Of a DNA stretch of 64,000 nucleotides, positions 29,800 through 40,246 are shown in pieces. The DNA is from Micromonospora cremea (GTDB taxonomy: Bacteria > Actinomycetota > Actinomycetes > Mycobacteriales > Micromonosporaceae), in the NCBI RefSeq assembly GCF_900143515.1, contig NZ_FSQT01000002.1:1613501-1677500 (forward strand). The letters are read 5' to 3'. The notes beneath the pieces are model-generated. The model was not told the DNA's origin, searched no databases, and saw nothing but the letters and a program-made list of their open reading frames with translations. A program made the position numbers and the translations under genes. How positions within the stretch are numbered: the stretch's first letter is position 1; the number at the start of each line of letters is the position of its first letter.

Positions 29800-30474
29800 A
29801 TGATCTACCGCGACGCGGCAGCACCGCGACGGGCCAGCGTGGCGATCGCGATGGTGCTCGCGCTCGCCGCCTGCGCCCCCGCCGACCATCGCGGCCAGGC
29901 CGGGGACGGACCGAGCACAGCGCCCCAGCTCACGAGCATGCCCGGCCCGACGCCCTCGGCGTACGTCAGCCCGCCGTTCTGGTGCCCGGAGTCGGGCGTC
30001 CGGATCCGGTCGAGGGGGTCGGACGCCGCGATGGGGCTGCGCGCCCTCGGCCTGGAGCTGGTCAACTGCGGCGACCGTCCCTACCGGATCAAGGGATACC
30101 CGGCGCTGCGCGTGCTGGACGAGGACCGCAAGCCGATCATCCTGCGCGTGCTGCCCGGGGCGAAGGAGATCACGCCGGGCTTCGACCAGCCGCCCCTGCA
30201 GATCACGCTGCAAGCCGGTGAGCGGGCCGTCGCCACCGTGCTCTGGCGCAACCTCGTCACCGACGCGACCGTGCCCGCCACCAACGGGGAATACCTGCGG
30301 GTCGCACCCGCCGCCGGGCAGCCGGCCGAGGACGTCGACCCGGACGGCCCGGTTGACGTGGGCAACACCGGCCGGATCGGCGTCAGCGCCTGGAAGAAGG
30401 CAGAGCAGCCGTCCGCGCCGGTGCCGACGCGACCCGCCCCGCTGCCGGTGAGCCCACCGGACAGTCGGCTATGA
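29800..30474 (+). CDS. DUF4232-type lipoprotein
   Basis: 224 aa. A signal with lipobox 'LALAAC' (Cys about 26) is followed by a Pro/Thr linker and the DUF4232 beta-sandwich. 'FWCPESGVRIRSRGSDAAMG', 'LRALGLELVNCGDRPYRIKG' and 'YPALRVLDEDRKPI' carry its two conserved cysteines, then 'LQAGERAVATVLWRNLVTDA'. The C-terminus is Pro-rich. Such proteins are secreted and function-unknown in actinobacteria. The 3' end overlaps the convergent ABC permease gene by six bases. Confidence 0.75.
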   Translation: MIYRDAAAPRRASVAIAMVLALAACAPADHRGQAGDGPSTAPQLTSMPGPTPSAYVSPPFWCPESGVRIRSRGSDAAMGLRALGLELVNCGDRPYRIKGYPALRVLDEDRKPIILRVLPGAKEITPGFDQPPLQITLQAGERAVATVLWRNLVTDATVPATNGEYLRVAPAAGQPAEDVDPDGPVDVGNTGRIGVSAWKKAEQPSAPVPTRPAPLPVSPPDSRL

Positions 30475-31365
30475 CGTGATGTCCTTGCGGGTGAAGCGCC
30501 AGAAGGCCAGCCCCCAGAACAGCGTCGCGTAGCTGATCGCCGAGATGCAGCCGCGCACCACGTCGTCGGTCTGCACCGGGGTCGAGAGCAGCCCCAGCCA
30601 GGCGGTGCTGAAGTGGGTGGGCAGGAAGTCGCGCAGCGCGCCGAGGGCGGTGATCTGGTCCAGGATGCTGGACAGGATCCAGAGCAGCACCGCGCCACCC
30701 ACCGCGCCCAGCGCGGCGTCCGTGGTCACCGACAGCAGGAACGCCAGCCCGGCCACCACCAGCAGGACGACCGCCAGGTAGCCGAGCACGGCCAGCAGCC
30801 GGAGCAGCCCCTCGCCCGGCTCAAGCTCGGCGGCGACCGTGCTGCGCAGCGGCGACCAGCCGTAGCGCAGGGTGCCCGCGGCGAGTGCGGTGCCGGCCAG
30901 CAGCAGCAGAGCCAGCCCGGAGTACGCGAGCGCGACCACCAGCTTCACGGTGAGCAGCCGGGCCCGGGGCACCGGAATCGCCAGCAGGTAGCGCAGGCTG
31001 CCCCAGCTCGCCTCGCTGGCCACCGTGTCGCCACAGAACAGCGCGACGACGACCACCAGCAGGAACGACGCCGACACGAAGATCGAGAACAGGGTGAAGT
31101 TGAGCCCGCCGGACGTGGCCAGGTCGACCAGGCTGGCGAACTCGTTGTTGCCGTTGTCGTCGTCGCCCCCGGAGTTGAACTGGAAGGCGACCAGGATGAT
31201 CAGCGGCAGCAGCACCATGAACCCGAGCGCCAGCTGGGTCCGCCGCCGGGACGCCTGCCGGCGGAACTCCGCGCCGAACGGCATCGTCGCCGACGGCCGG
31301 TAGCCCCGGGCCGCACCGGCCGGGTCGGTGACGCCCATCGGCGTCTCGACGGAAGAGCCAGCCAT
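30469..31365 (-). CDS. ABC-2 type transporter permease
   Basis: 298 aa with six predicted membrane helices. The cytoplasmic start 'FGAEFRRQASRRRTQLALGF' enters the first helix. A long extracytoplasmic loop has the acidic 'NSGGDDDNGNNEFASL'. 'TVASEASWGSLRYLLAIPVP' followed by 'RARLLTVKLVVALAYSGL' is the typical ABC-2 coupling segment. The start codon ATG 31365 shares one base with the stop of the upstream hydrolase-ABC fusion (TGATG), so the two proteins are coupled and form the transporter. The substrate is unknown. Confidence 0.85.
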   Translation of the reverse strand: MAGSSVETPMGVTDPAGAARGYRPSATMPFGAEFRRQASRRRTQLALGFMVLLPLIILVAFQFNSGGDDDNGNNEFASLVDLATSGGLNFTLFSIFVSASFLLVVVVALFCGDTVASEASWGSLRYLLAIPVPRARLLTVKLVVALAYSGLALLLLAGTALAAGTLRYGWSPLRSTVAAELEPGEGLLRLLAVLGYLAVVLLVVAGLAFLLSVTTDAALGAVGGAVLLWILSSILDQITALGALRDFLPTHFSTAWLGLLSTPVQTDDVVRGCISAISYATLFWGLAFWRFTRKDITS

Positions 31366-34229
31366 CACCGGTCACCGCTTCCCCGAGAGTTCTCGCCCAC
31401 CAGGGCGAGGAACGCGTCCTCCAGGCGACGCCGGGGCACCACCCGGTCCACCCCGATGCCGGCGCGCACCAACTCGGCCACCACGTCGCTGCGAGCCGTG
31501 CCGTTGGTGTCGACCACCAGCTGACCGTCGCTCTCCGGCAGCACCCGGACCCCGTGCAGCCGGTCCAGCACCGCCCGCGCCGCCACTGGGTCGGTGACGT
31601 CGAAGAGGACGCTCGGCGACTCGCCCACTATCTCCTCCACCGGCCCGGACGCCACGATCCGGCCCTTGTTCACCACCACCGCGTGCGTGCAGGTCTGCTC
31701 CACCTCGGCCAGCAGGTGGCTGGAGACCAGCACCGCCCGGCCGTCCGTGGCGTACCGCTGGAGCACCCGGCGCATCTCGGCGATCTGCGGCGGGTCGAGC
31801 CCGTCGGTCGGCTCGTCCAACACCAGCAGCTCCGGCAGGCCGAGCATGGCCTGGGCGATGGCCAGCCGCTGGCGCATCCCGTGGCTGTAGTTCTTGATTT
31901 TCCGGTGCACCGAGTCGCCCAGTCCGGCGATCTCCAGCGCCGTGTCGAAGTGGGCGTCCGCCGCCGGCCGCCCGGTCGCCCGCCAGTACGCCCTGAGGTT
32001 CTCCAGGCCGGACAGGTGCGGCAGGAACCCGGGCCCCTCCACCAGCGCGCCGATCCGGGAGAGCACCGGCGAGCCGGGCACCAGCCGGCGGCCGAAGACG
32101 TAGATCTCGCCAGCGGTCGGCTGGGTCAGCCCCATCAGCACCCGCAGCGTGGTGGTCTTGCCGGCGCCGTTCGGCCCGAGCAGGCCCACCACCTGACCCG
32201 GATGCACCTCGAAGTCCACGTTCGACACCGCGACGAAGCCGTCCGCGTACTCCTTGCGCAGCCGGCGCACGGCCAGCGGCGTGCCCGCGTACTCCGGGTG
32301 CACCGAGCGGTCCTGCCGGCGGTGCCGGCGGCGGACCACGGCCACGACCACGACGAGGCCGATCGCGATGGCGGCGAGCAGGCCGGCGAGCACCCAGCGC
32401 CAGATCGTCGCCGTGGTGGGGATCGGCTCCCCGCCGACCGTGGGCAGGCTGACCGCGCCGTCCGCCGCCACCGTGTAGACGGTGGGCTGGGCCGGCGTCG
32501 TGTACGCCTGATCGGAGCTGGCCACCACCAGCCGCAGCCGGTGCCCGGCCTCGACCCGGCGGACGATCCCGGGCAGCGTCACGGTGACCGGGCGGGCGTC
32601 CTGCACCCGCTGCGGCAGGCCGGTGAGCCGGACCGGGGCGACCAGCCCGTTCGGCAGCGTGGCCGCGCCCTCCGGATCGACGTCGTAGAGCTTGACGAAG
32701 AGCACCGCCTCGCCGGTCGGTGAGGCAGCCCGCAGGGTGACGGTTGGCGCGCCCGCCACGTCGACCGCATCGGTCAGCGGCGCCGACTCGAACCGGGCGT
32801 GCTGGCCGGGCACGTCGCCGGCCACCCCGTCCAGCAGCGAGGCGAGCCCGCCTGCGAACGGCACCGAGGAGATGGCGGCCGGGCTGCCGTTCGGCGGGTT
32901 CGCGATCGGCTGGGCCGGGCCGGCGACGGCGACCTCCCGTCGGGCGTCGCCGGCCAGGCCCGGGTAGTCGGTCGCGCGGAAGCCGGTGGCGACCAGGCCC
33001 CGGTCGAGGGCGTCGAAGCCGGCGATCCGCGACCAGGTGAAGTCGTCGCCGGGCGCCTCACCCTCGCCCTTGACGTAGTGGTCGAGCCACTGGACCGTCA
33101 GGAACTTCACCCGGTCCGAGTCCGAACGGGGGCCCGCACCGCCGTCGTGCCCGCCGGTGAACCAGGCGACCCGCACCGGGGTGCCGGCGGCGGCGATGCC
33201 CCGCGCGTTGGCGTCCGCCTCGCCGAGGGGGAAGAGGGTGTCCGCCTCGCCCTGCACCAGCAGGGTGGGCGCCGAGATCCGGTCCAGTACGCCCGCCGGG
33301 CTGGACCGGCGCAGCAGGTCCACAGCGGCCTGATCGGCTCGACCGGTGGTGGCGATCCGGAGGTACGCGGCGCACACGTCGGCGGCGAACCGGCCGCACG
33401 ACGGGTCGGCGGCACCCGCCGGAGCGCCACCGGGACCGGTACCCGGGCCGGCGCCCGGCCCCGGGCTGGGTGGGCCGGCGGAGGCCGGTGCGCCCTGCGG
33501 CTGGGCGGCGGTCCCGCCGGAGAGCCCGGCCGGGCCGCTGCCCACGTTGCCGCCCCCACCGAAGAAGAGACCGGCCCAGCCCTTCTTGAACACGCCCTCG
33601 GTCGGCGCCCCGCCGGTGCTCTCCGGCAGGAACGCCCGGGACAGGTCGTTCCAGGTGATCATGGGGACGATGGCGTCCACACGGCGGTCCTGGGCGGCCA
33701 GCAGCAGCGCCAACCCACCACCGTACGAGCCGCCGACCACGCCGACCTTCGGGTCGCCGGCACCGTCGGTGCGCACCTCCGGCCGGGCGGCGAGCCAGTC
33801 CAGCAGCCGTTGCGCGTCGCGTACCTCGTAGTCCGGGCCGTCCAGGTGGATCTCGCCGCCGCTGCGGCCGAAGCCCCGCGCGGTCCAGGTGAGCACCGCG
33901 TAGCCGCGCCCGACGAACTCCTCCGCGTCGGAGCGCACCGACTCCTTGGTGCCGCCGAACCCGTGCGCCAGCAGCACCGCCGGCACCTTCCGACCGGACG
34001 AGGCGTCGGTCGGCAGGTAGAAGGTCGTGTCCAGGTCCACCGGCTGGTCACCGGCCGGTCCGGAACGGACCGTGAGCATCGCGCTCTCGGTGCGTACGCC
34101 CGATCCCTGCGGCCACACCGCCCAGGTCACGGCGGCCGCCAGGAGCACGACGACCACCGCTGCGGCGATCGCTCGGCGGCGGGTGGGCAGGGCACGCCGG
34201 AACCACGCGGCCGGCGACGGCGATCTCAT
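31365..34229 (-). CDS. Fusion of an exported alpha/beta hydrolase (CocE/S15-like) and an ABC ATPase
   Basis: A 954-residue chain with two unrelated enzymes. A first membrane segment (about residues 18-40) leads to an extracytoplasmic hydrolase: 'AVLLAHGFGGTKESVRSDAE', nucleophile Ser168 in 'VVGGSYGGGLALL', and the later 'LLVQGEADTLFPLGEADANA' and 'FTGGHDGG' with the catalytic Asp and His. An X-Pro-peptidase-like beta domain follows ('LPGIVRRVEAGHRLRLVVAS'). A second segment 'LAGLLAAIAIGLVVVVAVV' (about 610-632) returns to the cytoplasm. The ABC domain has 'GLLGPNGAGKTTTLRVLMGL', 'YSHGMRQRLAIAQAMLG' and 'LLVLDEPTDGLDPP'. ATG 34229 has TACCGT seven bases upstream. Confidence 0.88.
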   Translation of the reverse strand: MRSPSPAAWFRRALPTRRRAIAAAVVVVLLAAAVTWAVWPQGSGVRTESAMLTVRSGPAGDQPVDLDTTFYLPTDASSGRKVPAVLLAHGFGGTKESVRSDAEEFVGRGYAVLTWTARGFGRSGGEIHLDGPDYEVRDAQRLLDWLAARPEVRTDGAGDPKVGVVGGSYGGGLALLLAAQDRRVDAIVPMITWNDLSRAFLPESTGGAPTEGVFKKGWAGLFFGGGGNVGSGPAGLSGGTAAQPQGAPASAGPPSPGPGAGPGTGPGGAPAGAADPSCGRFAADVCAAYLRIATTGRADQAAVDLLRRSSPAGVLDRISAPTLLVQGEADTLFPLGEADANARGIAAAGTPVRVAWFTGGHDGGAGPRSDSDRVKFLTVQWLDHYVKGEGEAPGDDFTWSRIAGFDALDRGLVATGFRATDYPGLAGDARREVAVAGPAQPIANPPNGSPAAISSVPFAGGLASLLDGVAGDVPGQHARFESAPLTDAVDVAGAPTVTLRAASPTGEAVLFVKLYDVDPEGAATLPNGLVAPVRLTGLPQRVQDARPVTVTLPGIVRRVEAGHRLRLVVASSDQAYTTPAQPTVYTVAADGAVSLPTVGGEPIPTTATIWRWVLAGLLAAIAIGLVVVVAVVRRRHRRQDRSVHPEYAGTPLAVRRLRKEYADGFVAVSNVDFEVHPGQVVGLLGPNGAGKTTTLRVLMGLTQPTAGEIYVFGRRLVPGSPVLSRIGALVEGPGFLPHLSGLENLRAYWRATGRPAADAHFDTALEIAGLGDSVHRKIKNYSHGMRQRLAIAQAMLGLPELLVLDEPTDGLDPPQIAEMRRVLQRYATDGRAVLVSSHLLAEVEQTCTHAVVVNKGRIVASGPVEEIVGESPSVLFDVTDPVAARAVLDRLHGVRVLPESDGQLVVDTNGTARSDVVAELVRAGIGVDRVVPRRRLEDAFLALVGENSRGSGDR

Positions 34230-34603
34230 GCGGCACACGGTACGGGCCGCAGGCTGAGCGTTGCCTGAGATCCGCCGTGCGTCCGTCCGGTTGCCCCGAT
34301 CGGCGGTCCGGGGAGGTGCGACCGCGCACCGTCGAAGGCGGCACAGTGAGTTGAGTTCGGATCACGTGAATTCCGATCTTCGGCGAATATCCACCTCGAT
34401 CCCTTCATGTCACACCCGCCGATGGGACACAGCGTGCCGGCAACACGGACGAACGGTGACATCGCTCGAACTGACGCAAACCTGACTCACCGGCAACCGG
34501 TTCGCCCACGGACGATTCGGCTAGTTTTCCGGTCCGGTGCATGGGACTCGTCGGCGAACCCGACACCGCGCCGAGCCCCAGCCCGACGCCGGAGGAGACA
34601 CAG
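34230..34603. other. Promoter region of the conservon operon
   Basis: No gene is supported in 374 bp. Composition is more AT-rich around 34340-34400. TAGTTT at 34522-34527 is a candidate -10 for the plus-strand operon, with TTCGCC (34501-34506) as a poor -35 at 15 bp. The -10 of the minus-strand fusion gene (TACCGT, 34242-34237) lies at the other end. Confidence 0.4.
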
Positions 34604-35797
34604 ATGACAGTCCCTGCGCCACGGGCCCGCCGACGGCCGTCCATGTGGGGCCGACTGCTGCCGCTGCTGCTCGTCGCGGCGCTGCTGGCGCCGGTGGGTC
34701 TACTCCTGACGCAGACCTGGCGGCAGACCGGTGACAACCGCGACCTGGCCGCCCGGGAACGACTCGGCGTGCAGTACCTCCGCGCCCTCGCCCCGGTCAC
34801 CGACGCCCTGGTCGAGGCCCAGTCCGCCGCGGTCAACGGCCGCCCCGCCCCCGGCGACGCGCTGATCCGCGCGGTCGAGGACGCCGCCGCGGTGGACGCC
34901 CGGACCGGCACCGAGCTGCGCAGCCAGGAACGCTGGGCCGGGCTGCGGGCCAAACTGGAGGCGCTGCGTGACCGCAGCCCCACCGACGCCGAGTCCGCCT
35001 ACACCGCGTACGGCGAGGTCACCGATCTGCTGCTGGCCCTGCACCGCAAGGTCCGGGAAAGCTCCGGGCTGGTACGCGACCCGGGGGCCGACTCCTTCTT
35101 CCTGCAGAACAGCGCCGGCCAGGAGCTGCCCGAGGCGGTGGTGGCCGCCGGCCGGCTCGCCGACCTGGGCACGCTCGCCCCTCGCCGGCCGGCCGCCGAG
35201 CAGACCCGCAGCCTGATGGAGCTGACCGGCCTGCGGGTGGCCGCCCTGACGCCCGCCACCGACCTGGTCGACAACCTGCGTTCCGCGGTGGACAGCTCGG
35301 AGAGCACCGACCTGGGCGCGAACGTGCTGACCCCGCTGGACACCTACCAGCGCTCGGTGGAGGCGCTGGCCGCGTACTCCGCCCCGGCCCCCGGCACGGG
35401 CGCGGTGGACCCGGTCCGGCTGGCGGCCGCCCGGCTCGACACGCACACGGCCGCCCTCCAGCTCCAGCCGGTCATCCTCAGCGAGCTGGACGCCCTGCTG
35501 GTCGAGCGGATCGACGGGCTGGACCGGGACCGCTGGCTGGCCGCCGGCGCCGGGGCCGCCGCCGTGCTGCTGCTGGTTTGGCTCGCCGCGTTGCTGATCG
35601 CCGCTGGCCGTCGGGCCCGTCGCCGGGCCGCGATGCCCGCACCGCGCGCGGACAGCCCCGACATCCCGCCATCGGGCGACCCCTGGCACCCGGCGGTCCA
35701 CACCGGCCGACCAGGTGACCCGCGGCCGCTGCAAACGGTCGGCGCGACCCGCGACCCGGAATCCGCCCAGTGGGGGCCGTCCGATGCTGCTCGGTAG
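34604..35797 (+). CDS. Membrane sensor protein without output domain
   Basis: 397 aa. Helix 1 ('GRLLPLLLVAALLAPVGLLL') and helix 2 ('WLAAGAGAAAVLLLVWLAAL', about residues 311-330) bracket an all-helical extracytoplasmic domain. 'VRDPGADSFFLQNSAGQELP' there resembles the DPDxDSYYLM motif of four-helix-bundle receptors. After helix 2 only about 60 polar residues follow: no HAMP, kinase or methyl-accepting domain. The start is ATG 34604 with GGAGGAG seven bases upstream. The end overlaps the sensor kinase gene by 14 bases, so it probably delivers signals to, or co-assembles with, that kinase. Confidence 0.75.
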   Translation: MTVPAPRARRRPSMWGRLLPLLLVAALLAPVGLLLTQTWRQTGDNRDLAARERLGVQYLRALAPVTDALVEAQSAAVNGRPAPGDALIRAVEDAAAVDARTGTELRSQERWAGLRAKLEALRDRSPTDAESAYTAYGEVTDLLLALHRKVRESSGLVRDPGADSFFLQNSAGQELPEAVVAAGRLADLGTLAPRRPAAEQTRSLMELTGLRVAALTPATDLVDNLRSAVDSSESTDLGANVLTPLDTYQRSVEALAAYSAPAPGTGAVDPVRLAAARLDTHTAALQLQPVILSELDALLVERIDGLDRDRWLAAGAGAAAVLLLVWLAALLIAAGRRARRRAAMPAPRADSPDIPPSGDPWHPAVHTGRPGDPRPLQTVGATRDPESAQWGPSDAAR

Positions 35798-38552
35798 GCT
35801 CCGGATCCGCGGCAAACTCGCCCTGCTCGTGGTGATCCCCCTGCTCAGCATGGTCGGCCTCGCCGTGCCCGTGGTGCTGGACCGGGTGGCCGCGGCGCAA
35901 CGCGCCAGCGACATCGCCGAGCGGGTGCGGCTCGCCAGCCGGGTCGGCAGCCTCGTGCAGGACCTCCAGCAGGAACGCATCCTCTCGGTCGGTTTCCTGC
36001 TCGGCCGGGTGGAACGCGCCGAACTGGTCCGCAAGACCGCGGACGTGGACGACCGGGTCGCCGACCTGCGGGCCGGGGGGAGCGACGCGCTGACCGACCA
36101 GGTCGACCACGCCCTGTACGGGGTGTCCAGCCTCATCGACATGCGGACCGCCGTCCTCGCCCGGGCCGCGAGCCCGACGCAGGTGATGGACGCGTTCGGC
36201 CCGGTCAACCGAGGAATGATCGAGTCGCTGCGGCTGTCGTTCAGCGTGGACACCGACACCCGGCCGGGCCGCCAGGTGCTCGCCCTGGACGGGCTGCTGC
36301 GCGCCGACGAGGGGCTGGGCGCCTGCGCCACCCTGATCGTGCTGGTCAAGGCGACCGGCAGCGCGCAGGCCAGCGCCGGGTACGTGGCGTGCATGGCCGC
36401 CCTCCAGGTGGACAACCAGCGCTTCCGCAGTCTGATCACGCCCGAGCAGTTCGCGGTCGCCCGGCTCAACGACGTGGCCGTGGCCGCCCGTACCAGCGCG
36501 GACTTCCAGGTCACCAGCGCCCAGGACCCGGCCGGTGCGATCCGCCACGTTCCACTTGACGTGCTCTTCCCGTCCGTCCGCTCGATGATCCGGCTCGGCC
36601 AGTTCGTGGAGAAGAAGCTGGTCGCCGACGTACTCGCCGAGGTGACCGCCGAGCAGCGGCGGGCGCTGACCGCCGCGTACCTCGTCGGAGGCGCCGCGGC
36701 GCTGATCCTGGCGGTGGTGGTGCTGCTCAGCACGGCCGTCGCCCGTACGGTGGCCCGGCCGCTGACCCGGCTCACCCGCTCCGCCGACCGGGTCGCCCGG
36801 GTCGCCGAGGCGGAGCTGGTCCGGGTCACCGACGACGAGGCGGAGAGCGCCCAGCCGGTCCGGCTGGATCCGGTGGACATCCGGGCCAACGACGAGATCG
36901 GCGACCTGGCCCGGGCCTTCGACCGGGTACAGAGCACCGCGGCCCGGCTGGTCGAGCGGCAGGTCGCCGGTCGGCGCAACGTGGCGCAGATGTTCGGTCA
37001 CGTCGGGCGGCGCACCCAGAACCTGGTGGGCCGGCAGCTCGCGCTGATCGACCGGCTGGAGCAGCAGGAGGTCGACCCGAGCCGGCTGGAGCACCTGTAC
37101 CGGCTCGACCACATCTCCAGCCGGCTGCGGCGCAACGCCGGCAGCCTGGTGGTGCTCTCCGGGTCGGCCGGGTCGGACGCGCACACCGCGCCGGTGCCGC
37201 TGGCCGACGTGGTCCGGCTGGCCCTCGGCGAGATCGAGGATTACACCCGGGTTGAGGTGCGGGTGCCGGCAGGCATCTCGGCCGCGCCGGCCGTGGTCGG
37301 CGACCTCGTCCTGGCGCTGGCCGAGCTGATGGAGAACGCCACCATCTTCTCCCCGCCGCACACCCGGGTGCTGGTGGCCGGTGAGGCGTCCGGGCTCGGT
37401 GCCCGGATCACGGTGGTGGACCGCGGCATCGGGATGGCCGAGCAACGGCTGGCCGAGGAGAACGCACGGCTCACCCGCCGGGAGCGGCTCGACCTGGCAC
37501 CGACCGAGGTGCTCGGGCTCTTCGTGGTGGGCCGGTTGGCCCGCCGCCACGGCTGGGGGGTGAGCCTGGCCGCCACCGACGGCGGCGGGGTGACCGCCCA
37601 GTTGGAGATCCCACCGGCAGCGCTGGTGCTACGCCGGGCCGACCGGGCCGGGGCCACCGTCGCCCGGGCCACCGTGCCGGACCGTGATCGGCGCTCGCCG
37701 GCCGCGCTCGATCACAGCCGGGGCGCACGATCGCTCACGGCCACCGCGGCGCCCGCCGGCTTCGCCTCGGACCTGCTCAGCCGGGCCACCCGCAGCCTGG
37801 AGTCCGGTGCGTCCTGGGACGCGTTCGGCACCGGGGACCCGGCCGGCACCGGTGCCACCACGACGGCGCCCGCACCGGTCGACCTCCCGGTCACCGACGC
37901 GGGCCTGCCCCGACGACCGGGGCGCGGGGCGAACGGTGGCGGCCCGGGCATCGCCGGCGCCGGCGTCGGCCACCCGGACCGCACCGTGCCGGGGCCTGCC
38001 CCGGGAAGCCCGGGACCATCGGGTACGCCGACCGGCCCCCGGGTCCGGCAGAGGGTGCCCGGCGCCAGCCTGCCCGCCGCTTCCGCGCCGGTCGGGCCGG
38101 TGGACGCCACCGGCGCCGACCCGGCCGCCGCCCGCGCGCTCGTCGAGGCGTTCCAGTCCGGCGTACGACGGGCCGAGCTGAGTGCCGCCCCGGGTACCGG
38201 TCACGCCGTCGGGCACTGGTCGGTGCGGACCGTCGCCGACCCGACAGCCGGTGCCGGGCCTGCGGCGGCGGACCCGAGCGTGACGGTCGACCTGCCCGCC
38301 ACTCCGGGTGGTCTCGGCCCCACGGTGGCCGACACCGCCGGCCCGGCCGGGGCGACGCCGGGCCGGCCCCGGCTGAGCCGGCGGGTCCCCGGGACGAACA
38401 TCACCGCCGCCCCGCCCCCTCAGCCGCCCAGCCCACATCTCGGCGACCCGGCCGAGGTCCGCGATCTCATCACCGAATTCGAGGCGGGCGTCGCCCGCGC
38501 CCTCCGCGAAGTCAGCCCAGACCGCCGGAACGAAGAAGGATCATCACGGTGA
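35784..38552 (+). CDS. Conservon sensor histidine kinase-like protein (CvnA type)
   Basis: 922 aa. Membrane helix 1 (about 10-30) leads to a nitrate/nitrite-sensing-like helical ectodomain ('LVQDLQQERILSVGFLLGRV'). Helix 2 (about 298-320) is followed by HAMP ('ARPLTRLTRSADRVARVAEA'). A DHp-like region has 'MFGHVGRRTQNLVGRQLALI' and 'RLDHISSRLRRNAGSLVVLS'. The ATPase has N-box 'ELMENATIFSPPHTRV', 'VDRGIGMAE' and 'GLFVVGRLARRHGWGVSL'. The last 300 residues are a disordered Pro/Gly/Ala tail ending in two similar short helices ('ALVEAFQSGVRRAELS', 'DLITEFEAGVARALRE'). GTGA couples it to the roadblock gene. Confidence 0.88.
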   Translation: MLLGRLRIRGKLALLVVIPLLSMVGLAVPVVLDRVAAAQRASDIAERVRLASRVGSLVQDLQQERILSVGFLLGRVERAELVRKTADVDDRVADLRAGGSDALTDQVDHALYGVSSLIDMRTAVLARAASPTQVMDAFGPVNRGMIESLRLSFSVDTDTRPGRQVLALDGLLRADEGLGACATLIVLVKATGSAQASAGYVACMAALQVDNQRFRSLITPEQFAVARLNDVAVAARTSADFQVTSAQDPAGAIRHVPLDVLFPSVRSMIRLGQFVEKKLVADVLAEVTAEQRRALTAAYLVGGAAALILAVVVLLSTAVARTVARPLTRLTRSADRVARVAEAELVRVTDDEAESAQPVRLDPVDIRANDEIGDLARAFDRVQSTAARLVERQVAGRRNVAQMFGHVGRRTQNLVGRQLALIDRLEQQEVDPSRLEHLYRLDHISSRLRRNAGSLVVLSGSAGSDAHTAPVPLADVVRLALGEIEDYTRVEVRVPAGISAAPAVVGDLVLALAELMENATIFSPPHTRVLVAGEASGLGARITVVDRGIGMAEQRLAEENARLTRRERLDLAPTEVLGLFVVGRLARRHGWGVSLAATDGGGVTAQLEIPPAALVLRRADRAGATVARATVPDRDRRSPAALDHSRGARSLTATAAPAGFASDLLSRATRSLESGASWDAFGTGDPAGTGATTTAPAPVDLPVTDAGLPRRPGRGANGGGPGIAGAGVGHPDRTVPGPAPGSPGPSGTPTGPRVRQRVPGASLPAASAPVGPVDATGADPAAARALVEAFQSGVRRAELSAAPGTGHAVGHWSVRTVADPTAGAGPAAADPSVTVDLPATPGGLGPTVADTAGPAGATPGRPRLSRRVPGTNITAAPPPQPPSPHLGDPAEVRDLITEFEAGVARALREVSPDRRNEEGSSR

Positions 38553-39025
38553 CCAGCCCCTTTCTGCACGACAACGTCGACCACCAGAGCCAGTCCGGCG
38601 CCGCCGGGGACCTCAGCCCGGAGGCCCGCACGTTCAACTGGCTGCTGGACTCCTTCACCTCCAGCACGGCCGGGGTGCTGGAGGCGATAGCGGTCTCCTC
38701 GGACGGCCTGCTGATGGCCATGTCGGCGATCAAGGACCGGTCCAACGCGGAGCGGCTGGCCGCCGTGGTCTCCGGCATGACCAGCCTCGCCGGCGGGGCG
38801 GCCAGTTGGTACGCCCTCGGCGGCCTCAACCGGGTCATCGTCGACATGGCCGACGGTTACCTGCTGATCAGCGCGATCAGCAGCGGATCCGTGCTCGGCG
38901 TGGTCGCGGACCGGTCGGCGAACCTGGGCACCGTCGCGTACGAGATGACGCTCTTCGCCGGGCGGGCCGGTGGCGCCCTCACGCCGCGGCTGATCGTCGA
39001 GCTGAAGAACGCCGTCCAGCAATGA
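38549..39025 (+). CDS. Roadblock/LC7 domain protein (CvnB type)
   Basis: 158 aa. A roadblock fold with 'TFNWLLDSFTSSTAGVLEAI', 'VSSDGLLMAMSAIKDRSNAE', 'VIVDMADGYLLISAISSGSV' and 'LGTVAYEMTLFAGRAGG'. In conservons this MglB-like protein works with the small GTPase and is thought to modulate its nucleotide cycle. The GTG start lies inside GTGA with the kinase stop, and its own stop overlaps the next start (ATGA), so all three are translationally coupled. Confidence 0.92.
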   Translation: MTSPFLHDNVDHQSQSGAAGDLSPEARTFNWLLDSFTSSTAGVLEAIAVSSDGLLMAMSAIKDRSNAERLAAVVSGMTSLAGGAASWYALGGLNRVIVDMADGYLLISAISSGSVLGVVADRSANLGTVAYEMTLFAGRAGGALTPRLIVELKNAVQQ

Positions 39026-39501
39026 CCCGCGACGTCGCCGGCGGGGATCCGGATCCGAGGCCCGGGGCCCGGATCCGTCCCTACCTGCGTACGGCGCCCT
39101 CGACCGAGGTCGGGGGGTCGGCGGTACCGGCGCCGGACGCGGGTGATGGCTGGCCCGCCGGTCCCCGGCCGTTCGTGCTCACCTCCGGAAGGGTGGCGGG
39201 CGCGGACCCGGCGATCGGGCTGGAGACGCAGGTGACCGTCCGTCCGGACAACGGCCCGTGGACCGCTCCGCCGGCCGTTCCGCTGGCACCGGAGCTCCAG
39301 GCGATCATCGCGCTCTGCGCCGAGCCGATCTCGGTGGCCGAGCTCTCGGCCCGTTCCCGGCTGCACTTCGGCGTGACCCGGGTCCTGGTCGGCGACCTGC
39401 GTGCCGCCGGGCACCTGGATGTGCACGTCACCGACGCCGACCACGCCTTCGACCCCGACCTCATCCTCCGAGTGATTGATGGACTCCGTGCGATCTCCTG
39501 A
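39022..39501 (+). CDS. DUF742 protein (CvnC type)
   Basis: 159 aa. The arginine-rich opening 'ARIRPYLRTAPS' is followed by a winged-helix-like DUF742 core, 'LAPELQAIIALCAEPISVAE' and 'LSARSRLHFGVTRVLVGDLR', then 'AAGHLDVHV'. It is the third member of the conservon. The residues between (40-85) are variable. It overlaps the GTPase gene by 23 bases. Confidence 0.92.
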   Translation: MTRDVAGGDPDPRPGARIRPYLRTAPSTEVGGSAVPAPDAGDGWPAGPRPFVLTSGRVAGADPAIGLETQVTVRPDNGPWTAPPAVPLAPELQAIIALCAEPISVAELSARSRLHFGVTRVLVGDLRAAGHLDVHVTDADHAFDPDLILRVIDGLRAIS

Positions 39502-40246
39502 ATGGCCGGTCGCCCCGCTCGGGGGACTCGCCGGCAACAGCGCCACCGCCCGCTACGGCACCTCGCCGGGCATCGGCGGCCCCGCGCTCGGGCGCACCGG
39601 CCCGCCACCGACCGCGCCACCTCCGCCGTACGGGCTGCCGACCGGCACCGGGTCGACGCCACCACCGGCCCACCGGCCGCCGGCCGCGCCACCCGTCCCG
39701 GTCAAGATCCTGATTGCCGGCGGGTTCGGGGTGGGCAAGACCACCACGGTCGGGGCGATCTCCGAGATCGCGCCATTGACCACCGAGGCCGAGATGACCA
39801 GCGCCGGAATCGGCGTGGACGACCCGGGCGCCCGGTCGACCAAGACCACCACCACGGTGGCAATGGACTTCGGTTGCGTGACCATCGAACGAAGCCTGAA
39901 GCTGTACCTGTTCGGCACTCCGGGGCAGGCCCGGTTCGGCTTCATGTGGGAGGACCTCGCGCGGGGCGCGCTCGGCGCGCTGGTCGTGGTCGACAGCGCC
40001 CGGCTGGACGACTGCTTCCCGGCGATCGACTTCTTCGAGCGGGCCGGTCTGCCGTTCGTGGTCGGGGTCAACGCCTTCGACGGGCGGCTGGCCCTGGAGC
40101 TGGGTGAGATCCGGTGGGCGCTGGCCATCGGGGACCATGTACCCCTGGTGCAGTTCGACGCCCGGGACCGGCTCTCGGTGCGGGACGCCCTGCTGGTCGT
40201 CCTGGATCGTGCGCTGGACCGGGCCACCCGGGACAGGAGGGCCTGA
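39479..40246 (+). CDS. Conservon small GTPase (CvnD type)
   Basis: 255 aa. A Pro-rich N-terminal extension of about 70 residues precedes a Ras-like domain: P-loop 'IAGGFGVGKTTTVGAISEIA' (about 81-90), 'TVAMDFGCVTIERSLKLYLF' and 'GTPGQARFGFMWEDLARGAL' in place of DxxG, and 'VGVNAFDGRLALELGEIRWA' in place of NKxD. This is the usual ATP/GTP-binding protein of conservons and MglA-like systems. ATG 39479 is taken; GTG 39488 is possible. Confidence 0.9.
   Translation: MDSVRSPEWPVAPLGGLAGNSATARYGTSPGIGGPALGRTGPPPTAPPPPYGLPTGTGSTPPPAHRPPAAPPVPVKILIAGGFGVGKTTTVGAISEIAPLTTEAEMTSAGIGVDDPGARSTKTTTTVAMDFGCVTIERSLKLYLFGTPGQARFGFMWEDLARGALGALVVVDSARLDDCFPAIDFFERAGLPFVVGVNAFDGRLALELGEIRWALAIGDHVPLVQFDARDRLSVRDALLVVLDRALDRATRDRRA

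Follow-up and report, generated by a model that had tools for sequence, protein, structure and literature searches.

On the minus strand of a 64,000-nucleotide stretch of Micromonospora cremea DNA (positions 1,613,501 to 1,677,500 of contig NZ_FSQT01000002.1; the whole of this stretch is called the window below), a serine hydrolase and the ATPase of an ATP-binding cassette (ABC) transporter are encoded as one protein, and the gene of an ABC-2 permease follows immediately. The chain begins with a transmembrane helix (TM1) and continues through a CocE/NonD hydrolase of the S15 type, with its PepX_C jelly roll, to a second transmembrane helix (TM2) and a complete ABC nucleotide-binding domain (NBD). 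This order had been claimed in an earlier reading of the letters of the window (the original prediction) and it was borne out by Pfam matches and two hydrophobic segments in a frame of 954 amino acids (aa), counted from an ATG that has an alternative GTG start 9 bases upstream. The fusion, its motifs, its pairing with the permease, its conservation and the grouping of the fused proteins in trees were all seen directly. The best explanation, whose chance of being right we put a little short of even, is that the two genes make up an exporter of the ABC-2 (type V) class in which an extracellular enzyme is built into the ATPase subunit and would cleave the exported molecule.

The hydrolase half was recognised by Peptidase_S15 (PF02129; 76.9 bits against a cut-off of 23, the best stretch being profile positions 3-134 of 262), by PepX_C (PF08530; 53.2 bits against 22.5) and by the NCBIfam model CocE_NonD (TIGR00976; 92.1 bits against 66.3), and a whole-domain fold match to CocE/NonD-type enzymes confirmed the alpha/beta core and the jelly roll. 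In its Ser-Asp-His triad with the GxSYxG motif, where Asp330 and His361 were assigned by alignment and position and not from a solved structure, the Ser is kept in 33 of 33 fused proteins and the Asp and the His in 32 of them. The C-terminal half reached ABC_tran with 105.9 bits against a cut-off of 25 and has an SSH H-loop in addition to the Walker A, signature and Walker B motifs; the signature pattern was absent only from one (L220) of the 37 fused proteins scanned. Both sets of active-site motifs are intact, as the original prediction had stated.

Three-part loci, that is those with hydrolase, NBD and permease, were counted over all fetched loci, and in 153 of 155 (108 of 110 when distinct loci are taken) the hydrolase and the NBD share one frame; this count omits loci lacking a part within the fetched stretch, which up to L143 were 27 with a hydrolase match, including fused but cut loci, such as L007, L063, L110, L112 and L114, and the unfused ones. 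The two exceptions, L204 and L210, have broken frames. In L204 (genome G240) the break lies in the linker between TM2 and the NBD, and L210 (G185) has many breaks in a genome that is 74% complete. Within the genus a match was found in 61 of 61 genomes and the matched frame was at least 975 aa long in 54, whereas in the other seven a part or separate parts matched, with the gap near a Gly/Pro-rich stretch around residue 250. This low-complexity insert of the hydrolase (residues 224-275, about 33405-33560 of the window) varies in length and is where the match breaks up in several draft assemblies. The named-genome collection holds 452 stretches that encode a relative, and among the best 80 of these, which were kept, 77 have both halves in one frame while the other three start only beyond the serine, at the end of a contig; the genomes in this set include members of Micromonospora, Salinispora, Plantactinospora, Phytohabitans, Catenuloplanes, Asanoa and Actinoplanes. 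A match was present in 85 of the 101 genomes of the order sample, and 20 regions picked from it, not at random, comprised 13 fused, 3 unfused, 2 that run off the contig (L206 and L209) and the 2 frame-broken ones. In the class sample 34 of 98 genomes had a hydrolase match and a fused copy was found in 17, and in the phylum sample 28 of 119 genomes had a match and the fusion was found in 8, five of them in other classes. Fused copies occur also in two small single-contig genomes of 1.3-1.4 Mb (G085 and G122), and G076 has two diverged ones (L126 and L127), each with its own permease. Nonomuraea gerenzanensis encodes the fused protein, which is absent from its gene table. Viral contigs gave 115 pattern matches, none of them a relative.

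The close coupling to the permease gene, which had also been noted, held well beyond the window. In the window the TGA stop of the fused gene (31367..31365) shares one base with the ATG of the permease (31365..31363). At 117 loci the nearest possible permease start, a choice that favours small distances, preceded the end of the stop by 1 base in 87 cases and by 4 bases in 27, and in the remaining three it lay 2, 3 and 13 bases after it. The permease accompanies 127 of 128 fused hydrolase segments, a count in which a protein aligned in two pieces can figure twice, and the last one is cut 66 bases past the stop. By comparison, none of 25 unfused segments has a permease within 250 bases; for 18 of these the downstream sequence exceeds 700 bases, and L204 and L210 account for 4 of the 18. 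When the class sample was searched with the permease, 18 of the 19 matches of at least 42% identity were at fused loci, and the 18 lower-identity matches that were fetched each adjoin an NBD without a hydrolase match in the stretch, the contig of one of them (L195) starting at the NBD.

In unrooted trees of the NBD (54 rows), the hydrolase (45 rows) and the permease (53 rows) the fused set lies on one side of a branch, with support of 99/96, 100/100 and 99/93, respectively. L204 is nested inside the fused group in the NBD tree and was counted as fused in the other two, L136 and L143 branch apart from the other fused members in all three, and among the 11 hydrolases taken as unfused are L206 and L209, the two that run off their contigs and that fall on the unfused side of the tree. 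In the NBD and permease trees the sister of the fused clade is L184, where an NBD that stands alone (55% identical) is accompanied by a permease (41%) but not by a hydrolase. Because each of the three trees sets the fused group apart, the data would fit one ancient fusion.

The original prediction placed the hydrolase outside the cell and the ATPase inside, and the sequences support this arrangement well. By hydropathy two strong hydrophobic segments, residues 20-38 and 613-631, bracket the hydrolase, and a full-length AlphaFold model of low overall confidence has predicted helices at 17-38 and 606-635. In 99 frames, many of them near-copies, the mean net charge was +5.2 before TM1 and -0.2 after it, and -0.2 before TM2 and +3.1 after it, the last value ranging from -1 to +6. 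All 33 fused and all 11 unfused relatives have Cys278 and Cys286, which are the sole ectodomain cysteines in 32 of the 33 fused proteins and would probably form a disulfide outside the cell. The nearest unfused relatives start with signal-peptide-like stretches, and the C-termini of three of them (L107, L117 and L137) read by eye LPNTG, LAQTG and LATTG, each followed by a hydrophobic tail, and resemble sortase signals. It is because of the charge bias, the conserved Cys-x7-Cys pair and these signal-peptide-like starts and sortase-like tails that the hydrolase is predicted to be outside and the ATPase inside, and an extracellular location seems to be the rule for the hydrolase family. A tail such as those of the three unfused relatives may have been the origin of TM2 in the fused protein.

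As to what is moved, and in which direction, the original prediction had left both uptake and export in play, of which export fared better. The permease reached the ABC-2 family PF12679 with 43.8 bits against a cut-off of 27.2, the NBD resembles those of the ABCA, DrrA and NosF types (140 bits to NosF), and no binding protein was found among the neighbours scanned, although no genome-wide search for one was made. Since both the NBD and the permease belong to the type found in ABC-2 exporters and the scanned neighbours include no binding protein, export or extraction from the membrane would fit better than uptake, which is less favoured. A comparison of the permease with solved structures gave nothing at E 0.1. 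Weak PADLOC matches of the fused protein (mad3, mad8, AriA, HEC-01A and NsnB) are confined to the NBD and were put down to general ATPase similarity.

In the exporter that we propose, the fused chain would span the membrane twice, with the CocE/NonD serine hydrolase, braced by its disulfide, held on the outer face by TM1 and TM2 and with the NBD on the inner face, its Walker A about 54 residues past TM2. One transporter would consist of two fused chains and two permeases, a stoichiometry that we infer, and it would export a hydrophobic or amphipathic cargo from the membrane or the cytosol, with the tethered hydrolase cleaving an ester or amide bond in this cargo as it emerges, either to mature or to inactivate it. 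This supposes that the hydrolase and the pump act on the same molecule and hence that hydrolysis and transport are functionally coupled, as the original prediction also suggested; the substrate that it named, a peptide, an ester or an antibiotic, may be of the right kind. A wider proposal, which is possible but rather less probable, is that there is a phylum-wide class of ecto-enzyme exporters, in which the ATPase chain of an ABC-2 pump crosses the membrane twice and displays its own serine hydrolase, mechanically linked to the pump through TM2, so that a single ATP-driven machine would export a molecule and then complete or disarm it at the outer face.

Several observations weigh against the exporter reading. 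The direction of transport is judged from family resemblance, and the NBD stays below the curated NCBIfam cut-offs (DrrA 162.2 of 312.45, lantibiotic protection 165.1 of 309.75). The full-length model is poor (predicted local distance difference test score 60.8, predicted template modelling score 0.34), and from it no inter-domain contacts were predicted. In the distant L097, L098, L100 and L108 there is little positive charge behind TM2 (net -1 to 0), no clear TM2 was found in L153, and L220, which is fused with an open frame, has lost the Asp and His of the hydrolase and has an altered ABC signature. The presence of the fusion in the class is patchy (17 of 98 genomes). Finally, the context search of 23 loci, in which open reading frames of at least 110 aa that recur in at least four other loci were sought and the 160 top ones considered, gave among the matches listed no class-wide recurring neighbour that ties the fused gene to a pathway or a substrate; ABC ATPases and antisense shadows aside, the recurring neighbours listed were confined to Micromonosporaceae.

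Mechanotransmission has been proposed for NosDFY- or MacB-like machines, and an unlikely alternative is that the ABC cycle here transports nothing across the membrane but acts on the tethered ectodomain, so that the hydrolase or its substrate is opened, positioned or released from the membrane. The near-constant spacing between TM2 and Walker A across fused proteins, the similarity of the NBD to NosF and the single direct tether between enzyme and motor are what would be expected from this. The permease, however, looks like an ordinary ABC-2 permease, and its conserved stretch GDxxAxEA...LRYLLxxPxxRxRLL recurs in two permeases of non-fused systems, so that transport has likely been kept. About equally improbable is a self-protection pump, an immunity system of the BcrA/LanFEG type with an added esterase or peptidase, which would remove membrane-active peptides or drugs and cleave them at the surface. 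The top NCBIfam scores of the NBD are to the lantibiotic-protection and DrrA models, and the permease has a weak MutG-like match (E 0.0074), all of these below cut-off; but a gene with a match in every genome of the genus sample and with no class-wide biosynthesis neighbours among the matches listed resembles an inherited core gene and not cluster-linked immunity. More doubtful still is that the fusion merely tethers a scavenging surface hydrolase while the ABC half pumps something unrelated. The apparently secreted nature of the closest unfused relatives, of which some have sortase-like tails, indicates that anchoring is a recurring need, but a plain transmembrane tail could replace a mere anchor, and the two halves have remained joined in more than one class of the phylum, the fused proteins forming a group in each of the three trees. 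That two genes were joined through a sequencing or annotation error has a negligible chance, for the domain-order search in actinobacteria, proposed earlier as a check, turned up not split homologues with an error at the junction but fused three-part loci in all cases save L204 and L210, 77 of the best 80 named-genome loci are in one frame with the other three starting past the serine, and in L204 itself the NBD frame offers no possible start before a TTG that lies right at the edge of the NBD core.

Features of the fused gene and its permease, with positions in the window
Feature	Position	Strand	Basis
Fused-protein coding sequence (hydrolase-TM-ABC ATPase), 954 aa	31365..34229	-	single frame, no internal stops
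TM1 / signal-anchor, residues 20-38, RR/RRR ahead	34116..34172	-	hydropathy, model helix, charge bias
Peptidase_S15 match, residues 64-198 (N-terminal part of alpha/beta hydrolase core)	33636..34040	-	Pfam
Nucleophile Ser168 codon, in GGSYGG	33726..33728	-	motif and alignment
Cys278-x7-Cys286, predicted ectodomain disulfide	33372..33398	-	conservation, fused and unfused
Asp330 codon, predicted triad acid	33240..33242	-	invariant in 36-row alignment
His361 codon, predicted triad base, in GGHDGG	33147..33149	-	alignment
PepX_C jelly-roll domain, residues 475-583	32481..32807	-	Pfam
TM2, residues 613-631, then RRRHRRQDR	32337..32393	-	hydropathy, model helix, charge bias
ABC_tran NBD, Pfam residues 669-808 (whole NBD region about 651-944)	31806..32225	-	
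Walker A GPNGAGKT, residues 685-692	32154..32177	-	motif
ABC signature YSHGM, residues 781-785	31875..31889	-	motif
Walker B LLVLDE, residues 801-806 (LLVLDEP in sequence)	31812..31829	-	motif
ABC-2 permease, 298 aa, TGATG overlap with fused-gene stop	30469..31365	-	PF12679

Plus-strand open reading frames of 389 and 489 aa that overlap the fused coding sequence were judged to be GC-rich shadow frames. Divergent from the fused gene, at 34541-40246 on the plus strand, are genes for a NIT-HAMP-HATPase sensor kinase, a Roadblock/LC7 protein and an ATP/GTP-binding protein (PF03029), presumably an actinobacterial conservon. On the other side a DUF4232 protein (PF14016; 29800-30474, plus strand) is convergent with the permease, the 3' ends overlapping by 6 bases, and a homologue of 69.8% identity adjoins the pair of fused gene and permease in L087.

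The fused-protein sequences themselves are already in public databases. The sole annotated record seen, from Tsukamurella tyrosinosolvens, names only the hydrolase half ('alpha/beta fold hydrolase') and is followed by an 'ABC transporter permease' with a 4-base gene overlap. Among the papers listed in literature searches, judged by their titles and the beginnings of their abstracts, none was on this protein, which establishes absence in print only weakly. What the data add is an unusual design, present in many lineages of actinobacteria, in which a single molecule comprises a predicted extracellular enzyme and an ABC-2 ATPase. Should the two halves work together, Gram-positive bacteria would have a new way to link transport with chemistry at their surface, and the fused gene with its permease is a defined two-gene target for testing such coupling.

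With the CocE/NonD hydrolases (CocE, alpha-amino acid ester hydrolase, PepX and PaL lipase) the protein shares the alpha/beta core, GxSYGG, the Asp, the His and the C-terminal jelly roll, but unlike them its hydrolase is held by two transmembrane helices, is joined to an NBD and has a conserved Cys pair. In CocE the oxyanion-hole tyrosine, Tyr44, sits in an R-x-P-Y stretch, and where a paralogue in the same genome (L005) has RTPYG the fused protein has HGFGG, as seen in a motif scan and not in a residue-level alignment to CocE; the scan had no usable frame for L002, L003, L004 and L008. The cousins from the same class (L184-L201 and L203) share a homologous NBD and permease but, unlike the fused loci, have no hydrolase match in the fetched stretches, the upstream side of L195 being unseen. 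In the peptidase-containing ABC transporters of the C39/PCAT kind a cytosolic cysteine peptidase sits on the chain of transmembrane domain and NBD. The likeness is that a protease-like domain is covalently joined to an ABC ATPase, which suggests export-coupled processing, but in the fused protein the enzyme is a serine hydrolase with a predicted outside location, and the transmembrane domain is a separate protein. No C39 match was obtained with Pfam at E 0.01 on the fused chain, which has the S15-type hydrolase instead. The ABC-2 (type V) exporters with separate NBD and permease, of the DrrAB, BcrAB, LanFEG and NosFY kinds, have in common with our pair a complete NBD with a C-terminal part and one ABC-2 permease just downstream. 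The ATPases of such exporters are normally soluble cytosolic subunits, whereas here the NBD is the C-terminal end of a chain that is predicted to span the membrane and to carry an ecto-hydrolase on its other side.

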